Source: a virus. From it: a stretch of DNA of 20,314 nucleotides. The DNA is taken from positions 1-20,314 of IMG/VR virus record IMGVR_UViG_3300012359_000115; one strand, 5' to 3'. The translations under genes and the position numbers were made by a program. The notes under the pieces were generated by a model, which did no database searches, had not been told where the DNA came from, and saw only the letters and a list, made by a program, of their open reading frames with translations. Within the stretch, counting starts at the first letter, position 1. The number at the start of each line of letters is the position of its first letter. Shown here one piece after another: positions 2,376 through 19,248 of this stretch.

Positions 2376-4073
2376 CTACCCGTCCCATGTCCAGGCACGC
2401 CAATCAAATGTCACCGTGCTGGATGCGCTCAGCGTGATCGTGAAAGTCGTCGCACCTTTGGCACTCACCCAATACCTGATACCCGCCCCTGGGTCGCCCG
2501 TCGGCGTGATCTCCACCCGCGTCGGCGTCTTCCACAGGCCATGAGTGACCACTATACTCGTAGCGGCTGAAATGCTGGCATTGCCGCTATTGGCATCGAG
2601 GAAGCCTGCCGCTGAGCCATTAATGAGCTTCGAGCGACGCGAAACGGAGCTGGCATTGGTGAGATTGAAAGGCTGAAAGGTGATATTGGAAAAGGTTTCG
2701 TCTTCAAGCAGTGTCGGTCCAGCACCTGACACCTCTTGCACGCCGCGCCCTTGCGTGCCTACTTCCACATTGGCATGATAGTTGTGGCGCAGGATCACGT
2801 TCGCGACGCCATTATCGATCTGAATGCCGTTGTTCGCTCCGTCGTAGCATCTATTGCCCTCAAGCACACTTCCTCCGCTGCCTGTGCTACACGCGATTGC
2901 CCCGTTCCCAGCCGAGCGAGGAATCACATTATCGTGGACCCACGCCTTCCGAGAAAGGGCAATGCCATTGTTGGTGGTATCTGTCACATAATTATTGTCG
3001 ATCTCATACGTCACGCCAGCAGTAGGATTGAGGCGAATGCCTGTGTCGCTACTCGTCTTAATGCTATTACCTGAAATCTTCAGGTCACTCGTTCCGAGAT
3101 TGGCGACGTTTGCAACGTTAATGCCAAAGTTGTTGTTATACAGCAGATTATTCGCCAGCAAGACATGGTTGGAGTCGCTGACCCCTATACCGCCAGCATC
3201 GCCACCGGTCGAAGGATGATTGTAAATAGTGTTGCCAACGACAGTGATATGGCTCGACGCCTGGTTTGAACCGACTTCACTGGTATAGCGAATATTGATT
3301 CCCTGCACGCCGTTATCATGACTCACATTGCCGGTAATCGTGACGTGCGACGCACCCTCGCATCCGATCCCGTTTCCTTGTCCGGCGCTCGGCCCATTGC
3401 CATAGCAGGTATTCCCGGTGATAGCGCCATAACTACTTCCAAGCACCTGGATACCGCTAAACGCGCTTCCGCTGCTAATATTGCCGGTAATCGTGACATT
3501 GCTGCAAGGCGTGTACGGACTCACGCTCTTGGCTCGCACATAGACCTGATTATCTCCACAATTGAGTAAGCGATTATTGGAGATAATCAGATTCGTGCTG
3601 CTATCCGCCATGATGCCGCTCACATAGCAATCGTGGATGTAGCACCGCTCAATCGTGATATCGTCGGAGCCGCCAGTGATGTAGATGCCTTGCAGCTTTG
3701 TGTACTGCGTTGCGAGCTGCGCCACTTGCAATTTGTTGCCATCGATCTGCAGGTCCGAAATGGTCACGTGTGAGACGCCAGAGAGTTTGAAGCCGTTCGC
3801 CTGGCAGCCTGGCGCCGCCTGAAAGATGGTGCCTTTGCCTGAGCCTTGGAAGTGTACATTGCTTGGAACAACAAGATCACTTGAATAGATATAGAGTCCT
3901 GGCCCTGCATACACCAGGCCACCGCCAACCTCTCCAGCAGCGTTGAGTGCATTTTGCACCTGGATCGTCTGATCCGTTCCATTGCCGAACGCGTCAAAAT
4001 CGCGCACGTTGAAGGCGTGCATGTCCAGTGCGTCGTATTGGTAGCTGCCATTGGCGTTGACGGTAAGAGCCAT
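2376..4073 (-). CDS. Right-handed beta-helix (pectate-lyase-like) tailspike-type protein
   Basis: A 565-residue protein. The ATG at 4073 is preferred over an in-frame ATG at 4097: GAGGA lies at good spacing before 4073 and the upstream gene stops at 4078. The N-terminal part has the typical opening of Pectate_lyase_3-like proteins (FNVRDFDAFGNGTDQT, then GGGLVYAGPGLYIYSSDL). It is followed by about ten parallel beta-helix turns with repeated xxITGNxxxxN and HVTIxGN patterns (about residues 100-450), and then a beta-rich C-terminal domain. This fold is common in phage tailspikes and depolymerases. Role inferred: adsorption to, or cleavage of, surface polysaccharide. No catalytic residues can be assigned by eye, so it may bind rather than cut. 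It is followed by the glycosidase-like gene, so the two probably form one receptor or carbohydrate module. Confidence 0.85.
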   Translation of the reverse strand: MALTVNANGSYQYDALDMHAFNVRDFDAFGNGTDQTIQVQNALNAAGEVGGGLVYAGPGLYIYSSDLVVPSNVHFQGSGKGTIFQAAPGCQANGFKLSGVSHVTISDLQIDGNKLQVAQLATQYTKLQGIYITGGSDDITIERCYIHDCYVSGIMADSSTNLIISNNRLLNCGDNQVYVRAKSVSPYTPCSNVTITGNISSGSAFSGIQVLGSSYGAITGNTCYGNGPSAGQGNGIGCEGASHVTITGNVSHDNGVQGINIRYTSEVGSNQASSHITVVGNTIYNHPSTGGDAGGIGVSDSNHVLLANNLLYNNNFGINVANVANLGTSDLKISGNSIKTSSDTGIRLNPTAGVTYEIDNNYVTDTTNNGIALSRKAWVHDNVIPRSAGNGAIACSTGSGGSVLEGNRCYDGANNGIQIDNGVANVILRHNYHANVEVGTQGRGVQEVSGAGPTLLEDETFSNITFQPFNLTNASSVSRRSKLINGSAAGFLDANSGNASISAATSIVVTHGLWKTPTRVEITPTGDPGAGIRYWVSAKGATTFTITLSASSTVTFDWRAWTWDG

Positions 4074-16466: not shown

Positions 16467-16814
16467 TCAAGCTCCTTCCTGAGCGGCTTCGTCGGCTACT
16501 TCCGTTAAAGGAAAATCATAGCCTTCCGTTAAACAAAATTGGTGCAATTCGTTAATCAAATCGCGTCTCACCTCAAGAGGCCACACGTCGGTATTGACAT
16601 CCTCTACATCTGCGAACGCTTCAGCAAAGGCGTTGAACTGCTCGGCTGTGGCTGCCTCGGCATCAATTGCCTGTTCCACTCCGTCTAGCTGAAATGTTAA
16701 TCGGTGCAGGTCTAACAACTGGTATCTTCCCTGCTGTTTGCCTCTTGCGCCCTTTCCTGAAGTATTCTGGATATTCTCTTCGGTAGTATCGTTGCATTTG
16801 GCTACTGATTCCAT
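16467..16814 (-). CDS. Acidic protein of unknown function overlapping the frameshift extension
   Basis: 115 residues from an ATG at 16814 with AGAGGAG about 9 nt ahead; a longer frame from a TTG at 16841 is less likely. The first 38 residues are polar and low-complexity. The rest is a helical acidic domain (LTFQLDGVEQAIDAEAATAE, then VWPLEVRRDLINELHQFCLT). The first 152 nt overlap the end of the -1 frame coding region at 16663-17373 in another frame, which is unusually long. A later start, such as TTG at about residue 40 or GTG near 16680, would shorten the overlap. Function unknown. Confidence 0.6.
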   Translation of the reverse strand: MESVAKCNDTTEENIQNTSGKGARGKQQGRYQLLDLHRLTFQLDGVEQAIDAEAATAEQFNAFAEAFADVEDVNTDVWPLEVRRDLINELHQFCLTEGYDFPLTEVADEAAQEGA

Positions 16815-17373
16815 TCGGAAATGCTCCTCTCGTTTGTGCAAACGTTAACAATTCGACCACTTGTTCATTCGTTCGCTGCCTCCCTGGGTGTCCTTTGAAC
16901 TTTAACTTTTTAGGCAATTTCGGGCTAGAAAAATTTAACGTCGGTTTTGGTGAAAAATTAACGCTTTGAGGCTGATTCGTTAATTTTTCGTTAATTCTTT
17001 CCGGTGCTTTTTGTTTAACGGGCGTTAAAACTTTCGAAGGCTCAGGCGTTGAACTTTTCGAAGGTTCCGGTTGCCTCACCATGTCCTGCACAGGTGGCAA
17101 TGCTACCGTCTCAGGATGGCTCATACTCACTTGTTGGCTCGGTTGTTCAGGTACGACACGCGCTACAGGATTTGGAACATATGCGCTAGGTCGGGTAGGT
17201 GGTCGCTGGTAAGGCTGCACCTGCACAGGCTTCGGCTTTTCGTCGCCAGGGCTAGACCGTGCAACTGGCGACGGGTATTCGTAAGGCGGCGGTGGCTCAA
17301 TCTCGATTGGCTCAAAATTGCGCTCCTTGCCGATAGGTCCAGAAGTGCGGTCTTCATCCCCTGGACCACCTAA
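16663..17373 (-). CDS. Proline-rich, basic C-terminal extension reached by predicted -1 frameshift
   Basis: The -1 frame continuation of the membrane protein at 17370-18122: 236 residues that run open from the slippery site. About the first 135 are Pro/Ser/Glu-rich and disordered (IEIEPPPPYEYPSPVARS; TPEPSKVLTPVKQK). They are followed by basic KLPKKLKFKGHPGRQ and a compact helical, DNA-binding-like domain (RTNEQVVELLTFAQTRGAFP, then SSQMQRYYRREYPEYFRKG), with a basic tail. The first conventional start in this frame is a GTG at 17226 with no good ribosome site, 49 codons into the open frame. Joined to the 250 upstream residues it would make a 486-residue membrane-anchored protein. Domain function is inferred, not identified. 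Confidence 0.75.
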   Translation of the reverse strand, partial: LGGPGDEDRTSGPIGKERNFEPIEIEPPPPYEYPSPVARSSPGDEKPKPVQVQPYQRPPTRPSAYVPNPVARVVPEQPSQQVSMSHPETVALPPVQDMVRQPEPSKSSTPEPSKVLTPVKQKAPERINEKLTNQPQSVNFSPKPTLNFSSPKLPKKLKFKGHPGRQRTNEQVVELLTFAQTRGAFPNGISSQMQRYYRREYPEYFRKGRKRQTAGKIPVVRPAPINISARRSGTGN

Positions 17374-17379
17374 AAAGGG
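17336..17379 (-). promoter_or_regulatory. Predicted -1 ribosomal frameshift signal (C_CCT_TTT)
   Basis: Zero-frame slippery heptamer C CCT TTT (17379-17373), followed at once by the UAG stop, spacer TAGGT (5 nt), then a perfect 7-bp stem GGTCCAG / CTGGACC (17367-17361 with 17342-17336) and an 18-nt loop. Heptamer form, spacer length and stem placement all match established -1 shift signals. Confidence 0.75.
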
Positions 17380-18122
17380 TTTAGCGTCTTGCTGTGACCA
17401 TTGGAAGAAGACTTGGAACGCGGGGTAATCATCTTCTGATACATTGTTGCGTTCCGTTCTTTTTCCTCTTCTGCGATACGGCGCCGTTCCTCAACTGCCT
17501 TAACTTCGCGTTCGCGCGCCATAGCTCGCTCGTCCTGAACGCTATCAAGAGGCGTGTTATCGGAATCCGCAACCATACGCTTTTGCTCATTGTTCAGATA
17601 TGGCAATTGGTCTATGCCATCCTGCGCTGCTGAACGGCCAGCTTCTTCGCGCAAATTAGCAGCGACACGTTCCTTGGTAGGATTCATCATAGCATGTAAG
17701 ATTTTGCCGAGCACAACGGACATGCCAACGCCGAGCAAGCCGAGTCCCAGGAGCACCCATCCGAGCTTAGAACCGTTCAATTCAATCCACCTGAATGCTA
17801 CTGAGCACATTTCTAAGCCAAGCACAAAGATCACGAAGAAGCTGAATGCATTCTTGAACGAAGCATCACCTGTGTCATTTGAATGATTGTGTGTTGCCTG
17901 CTTCAGATATTCTTTGTGGAAAAACATAATAAACACGCAGACACCGATGAAAGCCGCGCTGACGATACCGAGCAATTCAGGGCCACCTTTGAACGTCAAG
18001 AATTGCTCGCCGAACCAGTAACCGACAGGATACGAGTTCAGGGAAAAGAACACGACAATAACCATTCCTGCCAGTGCAAGGAAGTACTTCGGAATTTTCT
18101 TGTTGTGTACGAGTTTCAACAT
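17370..18122 (-). CDS. Four-helix membrane protein with cytoplasmic coiled coil
   Basis: A 250-residue protein with AAAGG ahead of its ATG. Four hydrophobic segments are visible: residues about 13-30 (YFLALAGMVIVVFFSL), 46-67 (LLGIVSAAFIGVCVFIMFF), 90-110 (AFSFFVIFVLGLEMCSVAF) and 120-141 (LGWVLLGLGLLGVGMSVVLG). From about 150 it is charged and helical (AREREVKAVEERRRIAEEEK), probably a cytoplasmic coiled coil, ending SKTLNPF at UAG. It is the zero-frame product of the frameshift cassette. No family recognised. A role in anchoring a DNA-binding part, or a replication or packaging complex, to the membrane is an inference from the -1 extension. Confidence 0.8.
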   Translation of the reverse strand: MLKLVHNKKIPKYFLALAGMVIVVFFSLNSYPVGYWFGEQFLTFKGGPELLGIVSAAFIGVCVFIMFFHKEYLKQATHNHSNDTGDASFKNAFSFFVIFVLGLEMCSVAFRWIELNGSKLGWVLLGLGLLGVGMSVVLGKILHAMMNPTKERVAANLREEAGRSAAQDGIDQLPYLNNEQKRMVADSDNTPLDSVQDERAMAREREVKAVEERRRIAEEEKERNATMYQKMITPRSKSSSNGHSKTLNPF

Positions 18123-18151: not shown

Positions 18152-18233
18152 ATCCATTACACTATGGATAAGGTGTGATAGCCGCTTTACTATGACGGGA
18201 GGCGGCTAGGCTCCCTTGTTACGCGCTACAAGG
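18152..18233. repeat. Three consecutive inverted repeats in a short intergenic region
   Basis: ATCCAT/ATGGAT (18152-18169, 6-nt loop), TAGCCGC/GCGGCTA (18179-18208, 16-nt loop) and CCTTGT/ACAAGG (18214-18233, 8-nt loop) fill the gap between the small membrane gene and the four-helix membrane gene. None is followed by a T run, so they are not standard terminators. I see no convincing promoter here. They may be a structured leader or operator sites. Confidence 0.45.
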
Positions 18234-18411
18234 CCAAATTATCACATTGCGCTAACAATCGCCGCGCCTGCCTATCGTGATAGACTTGCGGCTTTTCGAT
18301 GACTGGTCTCTGTGTACGTTTGCGTGGCCTGCTCAGAAGATGGCCGAACACTAAGCCAACCAGGAGCATAGTCGCATTCGAGAGCACGATGCCGGGAAGC
18401 AAGATATCCAT
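18226..18411 (-). CDS. Small single-span membrane protein with basic tail
   Basis: 61 residues from an ATG at 18411, chosen over an ATG at 18429 because GAGG lies about 6 nt ahead; the latter directly abuts the upstream stop and has no close site. One hydrophobic stretch, residues about 3-28 (ILLPGIVLSNATMLLVGLVF), is followed by a basic tail (RPRKRTQRPVIEKP), giving an N-out, C-in topology. It follows the helicase-loader gene and precedes another membrane protein. Function unknown. Confidence 0.6.
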   Translation of the reverse strand: MDILLPGIVLSNATMLLVGLVFGHLLSRPRKRTQRPVIEKPQVYHDRQARRLLAQCDNLAL

Positions 18412-18429
18412 GCTGCACCTCTTTCTCAT

Positions 18430-19248
18430 TTATCGTATCGGCCTCACTTTGCCCTCATCGTTTGCAGATCGGCGTAGATTGCGTCCTCTCATCGCCACCG
18501 GCTTGCAATATTCGGCGATGCGCTCCAGGAGTCGTCGCCCCGCGTGCATGGAGCCAGCACGCACGTTTTCAGGTCGCCACTGCGCCTCCAGATCGCGATA
18601 ACTGTAATTGCTCGTAATGATCGTGTAAAGGCCGTTATCGCGCCGTGCCTCCAGCAAGCCTTGCAGTTTCTCAAGCACAAAGTCAGTCGGTCGTTCCGTG
18701 GCCAGGTCGTCAAGTGCCAACCATTTCACCGATTTTGTGAGATGCAGGAGGTCGTCGCCGTCATCGGTACGCCTTGCGATAGCCTGCCTCACTCGATCAA
18801 GCAAGTCCAGCGACCGAATGAACAGCGTATCTTCTTCGCGCAGCATCGCAGCATGAATGATGCTGATAGCCAGGCCGGTTTTGCCACAACCGAAATCACC
18901 GAAAAGGTATAGGCCATGCTCGCCACTCTGCCTGTTGCTGAAATTGGCGCAACGTGCGATAGCCAGCTGGTCAACATCCCCCGGTGTCGTACCAAAGTTC
19001 CATTCTTTTGCGCGTTGCGGGATGTTCGCATCGGCAAAGAGCCGCGCAACCTTAGCTGAGAATGCGTGTGCTGTAGCCTTATCTGAGCAGGTTGGACAGG
19101 GAAGAATGTGCTGTTTCCAACCTGTTTCGGGCCCAAAATTGCGATCTCGTACCCACCCGTGCATATTTGGGTCTGTGATTTCGATTTTGCATGTTGGACA
19201 GATGAAAGCTCGAAAAGGCTCATAGGCCAGGTTTGTTTGATCGTTCAT
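18430..19248 (-). CDS. DnaC/DnaI-type AAA+ helicase loader
   Basis: A 272-residue protein with AGGAG 8 nt before an ATG that overlaps the upstream stop (ATGA). The N-terminal part has two CPTC pairs (Cys17/Cys20 and Cys51/Cys54), a likely zinc site, as in DnaI and IstB-like loaders. The ATPase core has Walker A GDFGCGKT (117-124), Walker B LALDD (177-181), sensor TSN (212-214) and a C-terminal Arg-rich MRGRNLR. Such proteins load the replicative helicase onto phage DNA. An IS21 IstB transposition helper has a similar core, but no transposase gene is nearby and the phage context favours replication. Confidence 0.85.
   Translation of the reverse strand: MNDQTNLAYEPFRAFICPTCKIEITDPNMHGWVRDRNFGPETGWKQHILPCPTCSDKATAHAFSAKVARLFADANIPQRAKEWNFGTTPGDVDQLAIARCANFSNRQSGEHGLYLFGDFGCGKTGLAISIIHAAMLREEDTLFIRSLDLLDRVRQAIARRTDDGDDLLHLTKSVKWLALDDLATERPTDFVLEKLQGLLEARRDNGLYTIITSNYSYRDLEAQWRPENVRAGSMHAGRRLLERIAEYCKPVAMRGRNLRRSANDEGKVRPIR

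Follow-up and report, generated by a model that had tools for sequence, protein, structure and literature searches.

A conserved −1 frameshift signal in a predicted membrane protein gene of uncultured phages and its possible relation to a DNA-tethering form

Described systems closest to the frameshifted gene

In tailed phages, the known cases of programmed frameshifting are mainly tail assembly chaperones, along with a few capsid genes. Among the 2476 annotated frameshift genes of the SEA-PHAGES collection, 2397 are tail chaperones and 79 are hypothetical (PMC10885494), a count that fits the rarity outside tail chaperones claimed in a preliminary description of the DNA analyzed here. No paper on a frameshifted phage gene of the membrane/DNA-binding kind was found, in a search that mostly did not cover subscription journals and is therefore weak evidence of absence. 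In the gpG/gpGT system of phage lambda and its relatives, ribosomes shift into the −1 frame shortly before the gene ends, which gives rise to a minority form with a C-terminal extension (PMC5009743). The gene studied here was found in a 20,314-base IMG/VR viral contig (the whole of this stretch of DNA is called the window) and would resemble gpG/gpGT in its minority extended form and in an N-terminal part common to both forms; unlike gpG/gpGT, it would encode a membrane protein and it lies beside replication-type genes, not between the major tail and tape-measure genes. A tail assembly chaperone of the G/GT type was rejected, as the neighbors are a DnaC-like loader and small genes and no PHROG or Pfam match was obtained.

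To our knowledge, it has been worked out in few systems how tailed phages bring their DNA to the membrane. The phi29 proteins p16.7 and p1 are membrane organizers of phage DNA replication, and p16.7 contacts the terminal protein and ssDNA (PMC4974454). The present protein would be similar to p16.7 and p1 in being a phage membrane protein proposed to anchor viral DNA at the membrane, and different from p16.7 in its proposed repeat-specific binding, for which we know of no description in p16.7. Membership of the p16.7 family was rejected, since neither the Pfam and PHROG searches nor those of PDB sequences and folds gave a significant match, with fold models that were weak; no similarity to either phi29 protein was detected in these searches. 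We know of no frameshifting in the production of p16.7 or p1.

The origins of lambdoid phages lie inside the initiator gene O, as iterons (PMC7466680). The window resembles this arrangement in that the gene for the proposed DNA-binding protein itself contains a repeat cluster, next to a helicase-loader function; its repeats differ from the lambdoid iterons by being 6–8 bp long, more numerous and extended into the next gene. Lambdoid O is a soluble protein without a membrane part or a frameshift. Another parallel comes from ICP1, whose Odn combines a GIY-YIG-type nuclease with a copy of the origin-binding domain of a competitor and needs its iterons (PMC8263062). One of the relatives described below (L011) likewise joins a GIY-YIG nuclease to the C-terminal domain family, which is a close logical parallel; unlike in Odn, the domain is not recognized by Pfam as RepA_N, and the fusion is a single instance. 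Compared with these systems, frameshifting here appears, with strong comparative support, to serve a different kind of gene, a membrane protein gaining a probable DNA-binding tail.

The slip site and its hairpin in nine loci

The minus strand of the window bears terminase, portal and head-protease genes, and a DnaC-like loader, a one-helix protein, the membrane protein gene (gene 1) and its extension ORF are all located upstream of them. The features are as follows.

18430–19248, minus strand: DnaC-like helicase loader (phrog_50, E = 1.5e-32)
18226–18429, minus strand: small protein with a single hydrophobic helix, immediately upstream of gene 1 (by eye)
17370–18122, minus strand: gene 1, frame-0 predicted membrane protein, 250 aa (ORF; blastp similarity to seven other contigs)
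17373–17379, minus strand: slippery heptamer C_CCU_UUU, in frame with gene 1
17370–17372, minus strand: frame-0 UAG stop, directly after the heptamer (sequence)
17361–17367, minus strand: 5′ arm of the stem, GGUCCAG (pairing; covariation)
17336–17342, minus strand: 3′ arm of the stem, CUGGACC (pairing; covariation)
16663–17376, minus strand: −1 frame extension, 237 aa counted from the shifted UUU codon (ORF, start-codon scan, dN/dS)
16669–16926, minus strand: conserved basic C-terminal domain, probably DNA-binding (profile match E = 3.5e-39; alignments; low-confidence model)
16843–17028: repeat cluster 1, seven copies of TTAACG/CGTTAA in both orientations, inside the extension ORF
16467–16718, minus strand: gene 3, protein of about 83 aa, LLDLHRLTFQLDG.. 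(ORF; start codon picked by eye)
16503–16555: repeat cluster 2, three copies of TTAACG near the end of gene 3

The junction reads ..CTA AAC CCT TTT TAG on the minus strand and is followed, after a 5-nt spacer, by a hairpin with a 7-bp stem (10 bp if G-U pairs are allowed) and an 18-nt loop. The −1 frame continues to position 16663, 235 codons past the heptamer, so that the predicted fusion comprises 486 aa. Past the slip, the first codon of this frame that could serve as a start is a GTG at a distance of 153 nt, without a good Shine-Dalgarno sequence. The heptamer, the UAG, the 5-nt spacer and the 7-bp stem are exactly as the preliminary description had given them. The predicted forms of 250 and 486 residues that it proposed agree with the ORF lengths (250 and 486 aa), as does the start-less beginning of the −1 frame, where no start codon occurs for about 50 codons. 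By-eye inspection of the junction revealed no consistent upstream Shine-Dalgarno stimulator or pseudoknot. Downstream, the start of gene 3 overlaps the end of the extension ORF, and this gene (DLHRLTF..) is kept in the relatives, apparently also in L008; upstream of gene 1, one-helix genes of similar size are found in L002 (2806–3045) and L003 (2388–2630).

The gene pair is present in eight further IMG/VR viral contigs, which makes nine loci in all. The extension protein led to L002, L003 and L004, an alignment to L008, the membrane protein profile to L010, L011 and L012, and a last scan to L046 (L005, L006 and L007 are the contigs of L002, L003 and L004 with longer flanks). Searches of phage records and prokaryote genome contigs with short exact peptide patterns, which will miss divergent relatives, returned no relative, and the group is thus known here only from uncultured viral contigs. 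All nine loci carry the membrane ORF in frame 0 and the extension ORF in frame −1, with a canonical X_XXY_YYZ heptamer in six and a near-canonical one in three.

Window: C_CCU_UUU, canonical; perfect Watson-Crick stem of 7 bp
L002: C_CCA_AAA, canonical; perfect Watson-Crick stem of 7 bp
L003: C_CCU_UUC, canonical; perfect Watson-Crick stem of 7 bp
L008: C_CCU_UUG, canonical; perfect Watson-Crick stem of 6 bp
L012: U_UUU_UUC, canonical; bulged stem
L046: C_CCU_UUA, canonical; stem of 7 bp with one G-U pair
L004: G_GAU_UUU, near-canonical; perfect Watson-Crick stem of 9 bp
L010: U_GCU_UUU, near-canonical; perfect Watson-Crick stem of 11 bp
L011: G_UCU_UUU, near-canonical; perfect Watson-Crick stem of 9 bp

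The three near-canonical sites all place UUU in the A site, and those of L010 and L011 were chosen with the stem in view. In Escherichia coli, heptamers of the UUN/AAN type in which X and Z belong to the same base class (e.g., both pyrimidines) shift when stimulated, and U_UU.C and U_UU.U are among the tetramers that shift in a stimulator-dependent manner (PMC4066793). G_GA-type sites (dianthoviruses and others) and the G_GU site of T7 gene 10 have a P-site triplet that is not XXX (PMC5009743), a property shared by the L004 site, in unrelated genes. The change from CCCUUUU to CCCAAAA among the loci preserves the X_XXY_YYZ pattern. A hairpin follows the slip site in all nine loci, at a spacing of 5–6 nt in eight and of 3 nt in L012; perfect Watson-Crick stems of 6–11 bp with spacers of 5–6 nt were obtained in seven of the first eight loci, and the 18-nt loop is common to the window, L002 and L003. 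When the window and seven relatives were scanned over every ORF of 150 codons or more (130,946 codon positions), only 130 in-frame XXXYYYZ heptamers (Y = A/T) emerged. The chance rate of a stem of at least 7 bp is 1.8% of positions. Five of the 130 have such a stem at a spacing of 4–8 nt and three of these five are the junction described here, in three different phages; the other two (one A_AAA_AAG, one GGGUUUC) both belong to the L012 contig. The A_AAA_AAG site (L035, near 8845) lies in a recombinase-like ORF with an 11-bp stem and is probably due to chance, because its −1 ORF has only 30 codons.

Among the four gap-free sequences, two of the seven stem pairs are altered on both sides, with one cell unpaired; slid controls showed zero two-sided changes and 30 of 500 shuffles reached the observed count, which is small given that just four sequences entered it. 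The L010 and L011 stems differ at several positions while their pairing stays full. L046, which came to light through its extension protein once the model had been fixed, exhibits C_CCU_UUA, a 6-nt spacer and the 7-bp stem; it comes close to an out-of-sample test of the predicted frameshift, and fits. Had the relatives shown two independent genes and neither a conserved heptamer nor a conserved stem, this would have spoken against the preliminary description; the opposite was found, as the arrangement, the slip site and the hairpin occur in nine of nine loci.

The −1 frame also shows signs of coding. For the first 24 codons past the slip, comparison of the window with L002 gives a dN/dS of 0.33 in the −1 frame against 1.42 and 0.86 in the other frames, and over 43 codons 0.39 against 1.49 and 1.23. 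A peptide just past the slip (GDEDxTSxPIGxExNxEP) is conserved between these two loci under −1 frame selection. The first −1 start codon lies 78 to 282 nt (26 to 94 codons) past the slip in eight of the nine loci, the exception being L004 (the same contig as L007), with a −1 frame ATG 30 nt upstream of the slip; in L012 the −1 frame opens a single codon ahead of the slip and then lacks a start for about 50 codons. Sequence comparison demonstrates a conserved −1 frameshift signal, as predicted from sequence, together with a coding −1 frame.

Two explanations would dispense with ribosomal frameshifting. The ORFs might be separate overlapping genes, in which case the downstream one would use a start of its own or depend on re-initiation after the frame-0 stop, and the occurrence of slip site and hairpin would be a coincidence; the L004 ATG and the frame-0 stop at the junction in the window and L002 are compatible with this. 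Against it stand the recurrence of slip site and hairpin in all nine loci, the lack of a start for 26 to 94 codons past the slip in eight of them, and the peptide under −1 selection in this stretch of the window and L002, and we consider it very improbable; an independent start for the −1 ORF was rejected on the start-codon scan and dN/dS. Transcriptional slippage or a homopolymer sequencing indel might be suspected from the T runs of 5 in the window and 6 in L012. The runs are only 3 in L003 (CCCUUUCC), L008 and L046 and 4 in the others, however, and what is conserved is X_XXY_YYZ with a hairpin at fixed spacing; additionally, an indel error is not reasonable because nine contigs with differing site sequences present the same −1 shift, which leaves this explanation hardly credible. 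A −1 frameshift on a hairpin-stimulated X_XXY_YYZ-type site in the membrane protein gene appears almost certain from these comparisons.

The two predicted proteins and the short DNA repeats

The AlphaFold2 model of the gene 1 product (mean pLDDT 72.6) comprises four long N-terminal helices (9–40, 47–84, 88–114 and 119–146), as expected for the four-helix membrane protein of the preliminary description, then further helices including a 43-residue coiled-coil-like helix (190–232), and a disordered tail that ends SSNGHSKTLNPF. We infer its membrane topology and localization. A similar frame-0 tail (SNGH or QNG) is kept in most loci (alignment only), suggesting that the short form is also functional. 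The extension consists of a Pro-rich disordered arm and then the basic C-terminal domain, in which a G..GR.R arm, with its G..GR nearly invariant, is accompanied by two predicted helices and QRYYRREYPEYFRK; the fold model of this domain is of low confidence (pLDDT 64, two helices), and neither a Pfam family above cut-off nor a PDB entry was found for it. Both parts gave no significant match in Pfam, PHROGs, PDB sequences, PDB folds or viral folds (best viral fold match, E = 0.35), with weak fold models, and the match of the L008 membrane protein to the family profile was not significant.

All nine loci have clusters of short repeats, of the TTAACG, CAATTC, CTTCCG or AATTGAG type, within the extension ORF and immediately downstream of it. 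Within 1.7 kb past the slip, TTAACG occurs 10 times in the window (2 elsewhere in the contig), 12 in L002 (7), 8 in L003 (2), 7 in L004 (9 in 108 kb) and 5 in L008 (4); over the same distance CTTCCG is present 10 times in L010 (20 elsewhere), AATTGAG 13 times in L011 (4) and AACAATTC 6 times in L012 (2), and L046 carries 8 copies of CAATTC in 1.5 kb compared to 1.1 expected. The density past the slip (1.7 kb) is 12 to about 100 times that of the remainder of each contig, values that are descriptive only because the motifs were picked after looking at each locus. Repeat counts exceed codon-shuffled controls in eight of the nine ORFs; in L011 most repeats sit just after the ORF. The repeats occupy both strands and all codon phases, which marks them as a feature of the DNA rather than of a repeated peptide. 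In most loci the GC content around them falls to 28–44%, with a weak AT dip in L008 and L010, so that clustered short repeats lie beside AT-rich DNA as in iteron-type origins.

The repeat type tracks the type of the C-terminal domain and not that of the membrane protein. The L004 membrane protein is 52–57% identical to those of L010–L012 (52% for L012) and at most 31% to those of the window and L002, whereas its domain is 92% identical to that of L002, whose repeat it carries. L046 and L012 share 79% domain identity and the same repeat with no detectable membrane protein similarity; conversely, the L011 and L012 membrane proteins are 58% identical and domain and repeat differ. Judging from these identities, membrane protein and C-terminal domain have apparently been swapped between phages. 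A repeat that follows the domain is the pattern expected from a domain and its recognition site, with the main caveat that linkage alone might carry both along, because the repeats lie in or beside the domain-coding DNA.

The C-terminal domain also occurs outside the frameshifted gene. The product of L011:6387–7151 was recognized as GIY-YIG (E = 3.6e-9), and its C-terminal portion fits the domain profile with E = 9e-10. This portion is closer to the type of L012, with whose domain it shares 39% identity across 59 residues; it is possible, by analogy, that this fusion acts as an Odn-like origin-directed nuclease. Stand-alone GIY-YIG genes are located just downstream of the gene 3 position in L002 (4823–5326) and L004 (4640–5149), and none was seen in the window. 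The DNA-binding-like character that the preliminary description gave to the domain gains support from the domain-tracking repeats and from the GIY-YIG fusion, and binding itself we infer.

A proposed mechanism and its genomic context

The best explanation overall, which we consider probable, is that the frameshift sets the ratio of a bare membrane scaffold to a repeat-binding, DNA-tethering form. Ribosomes on the membrane protein gene almost certainly slip by −1, so that one mRNA would yield the short form and a long form with the Pro-rich arm and the basic domain. Both forms would reside in the host membrane, probably co-assembled via their common membrane/coiled-coil part, and the C-terminal domain would extend into the cytoplasm and bind the short repeats in its own gene and in the next gene (TTAACG here), holding the phage genome at the membrane; this part of the proposal has moderate support and is fairly probable. 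The AT-rich repeat cluster, which in several of these phages lies near a DnaC-type loader, might then be a replication origin or a genome-organizing site, and the frameshift might keep the DNA-tethering subunits a minority within a larger scaffold, a weaker and tentative suggestion.

Other roles can be proposed for a genuine frameshift product. The long form might be a membrane-bound transcription regulator with the repeats as operators, given that they are short, in some cases in inverted pairs, and reach into the next gene; most of them lie within coding DNA, not upstream in intergenic DNA, and a ratio-setting frameshift with a scaffold form would be an unusual route to a regulator, which makes this role unlikely. 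A further role, which is also rather unlikely, is that the target of the basic domain is a protein or nucleic acid from the host or elsewhere, the repeats serving another protein, e.g., an initiator-like one. A separate initiator-like ORF does occur upstream in L002 and L010 (by eye), which means that the frameshifted protein need not be the initiator; on the other hand, the repeat type tracks the domain across two apparent swaps of the membrane part.

If the frameshift does set the ratio of scaffold to tethering form, the locus would represent a tether that is dosed by frameshifting and whose own gene contains the sites it binds. The GIY-YIG fusion hints at a possible origin-directed phage–phage conflict. 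More speculatively, it is conceivable that this is an undescribed system in which frameshifting doses DNA-binding subunits into a scaffold, the sites, a phage-specific repeat cluster and likely the origin, lie in the protein's own gene, domain and repeat are exchanged as a unit between phages, and a GIY-YIG nuclease equipped with the domain version of another phage type may target competitors.

A DnaC-like loader is found 1–4 kb upstream in four of the nine loci (window, L002, L003 and L010); the match in L004 is weak and about 8 kb away, and no DnaC-like gene was detected in the other four contigs, which may be incomplete. A ParA-type partition system was rejected, as PF13614 had no match in seven contigs that may be incomplete (the control matched 14 of 14). 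Integrases in four contigs suggest that some of these phages are temperate. In L010, an ORF resembling a DNA cytosine methylase (2533–3219, by eye) adjoins the DnaC-like loader.
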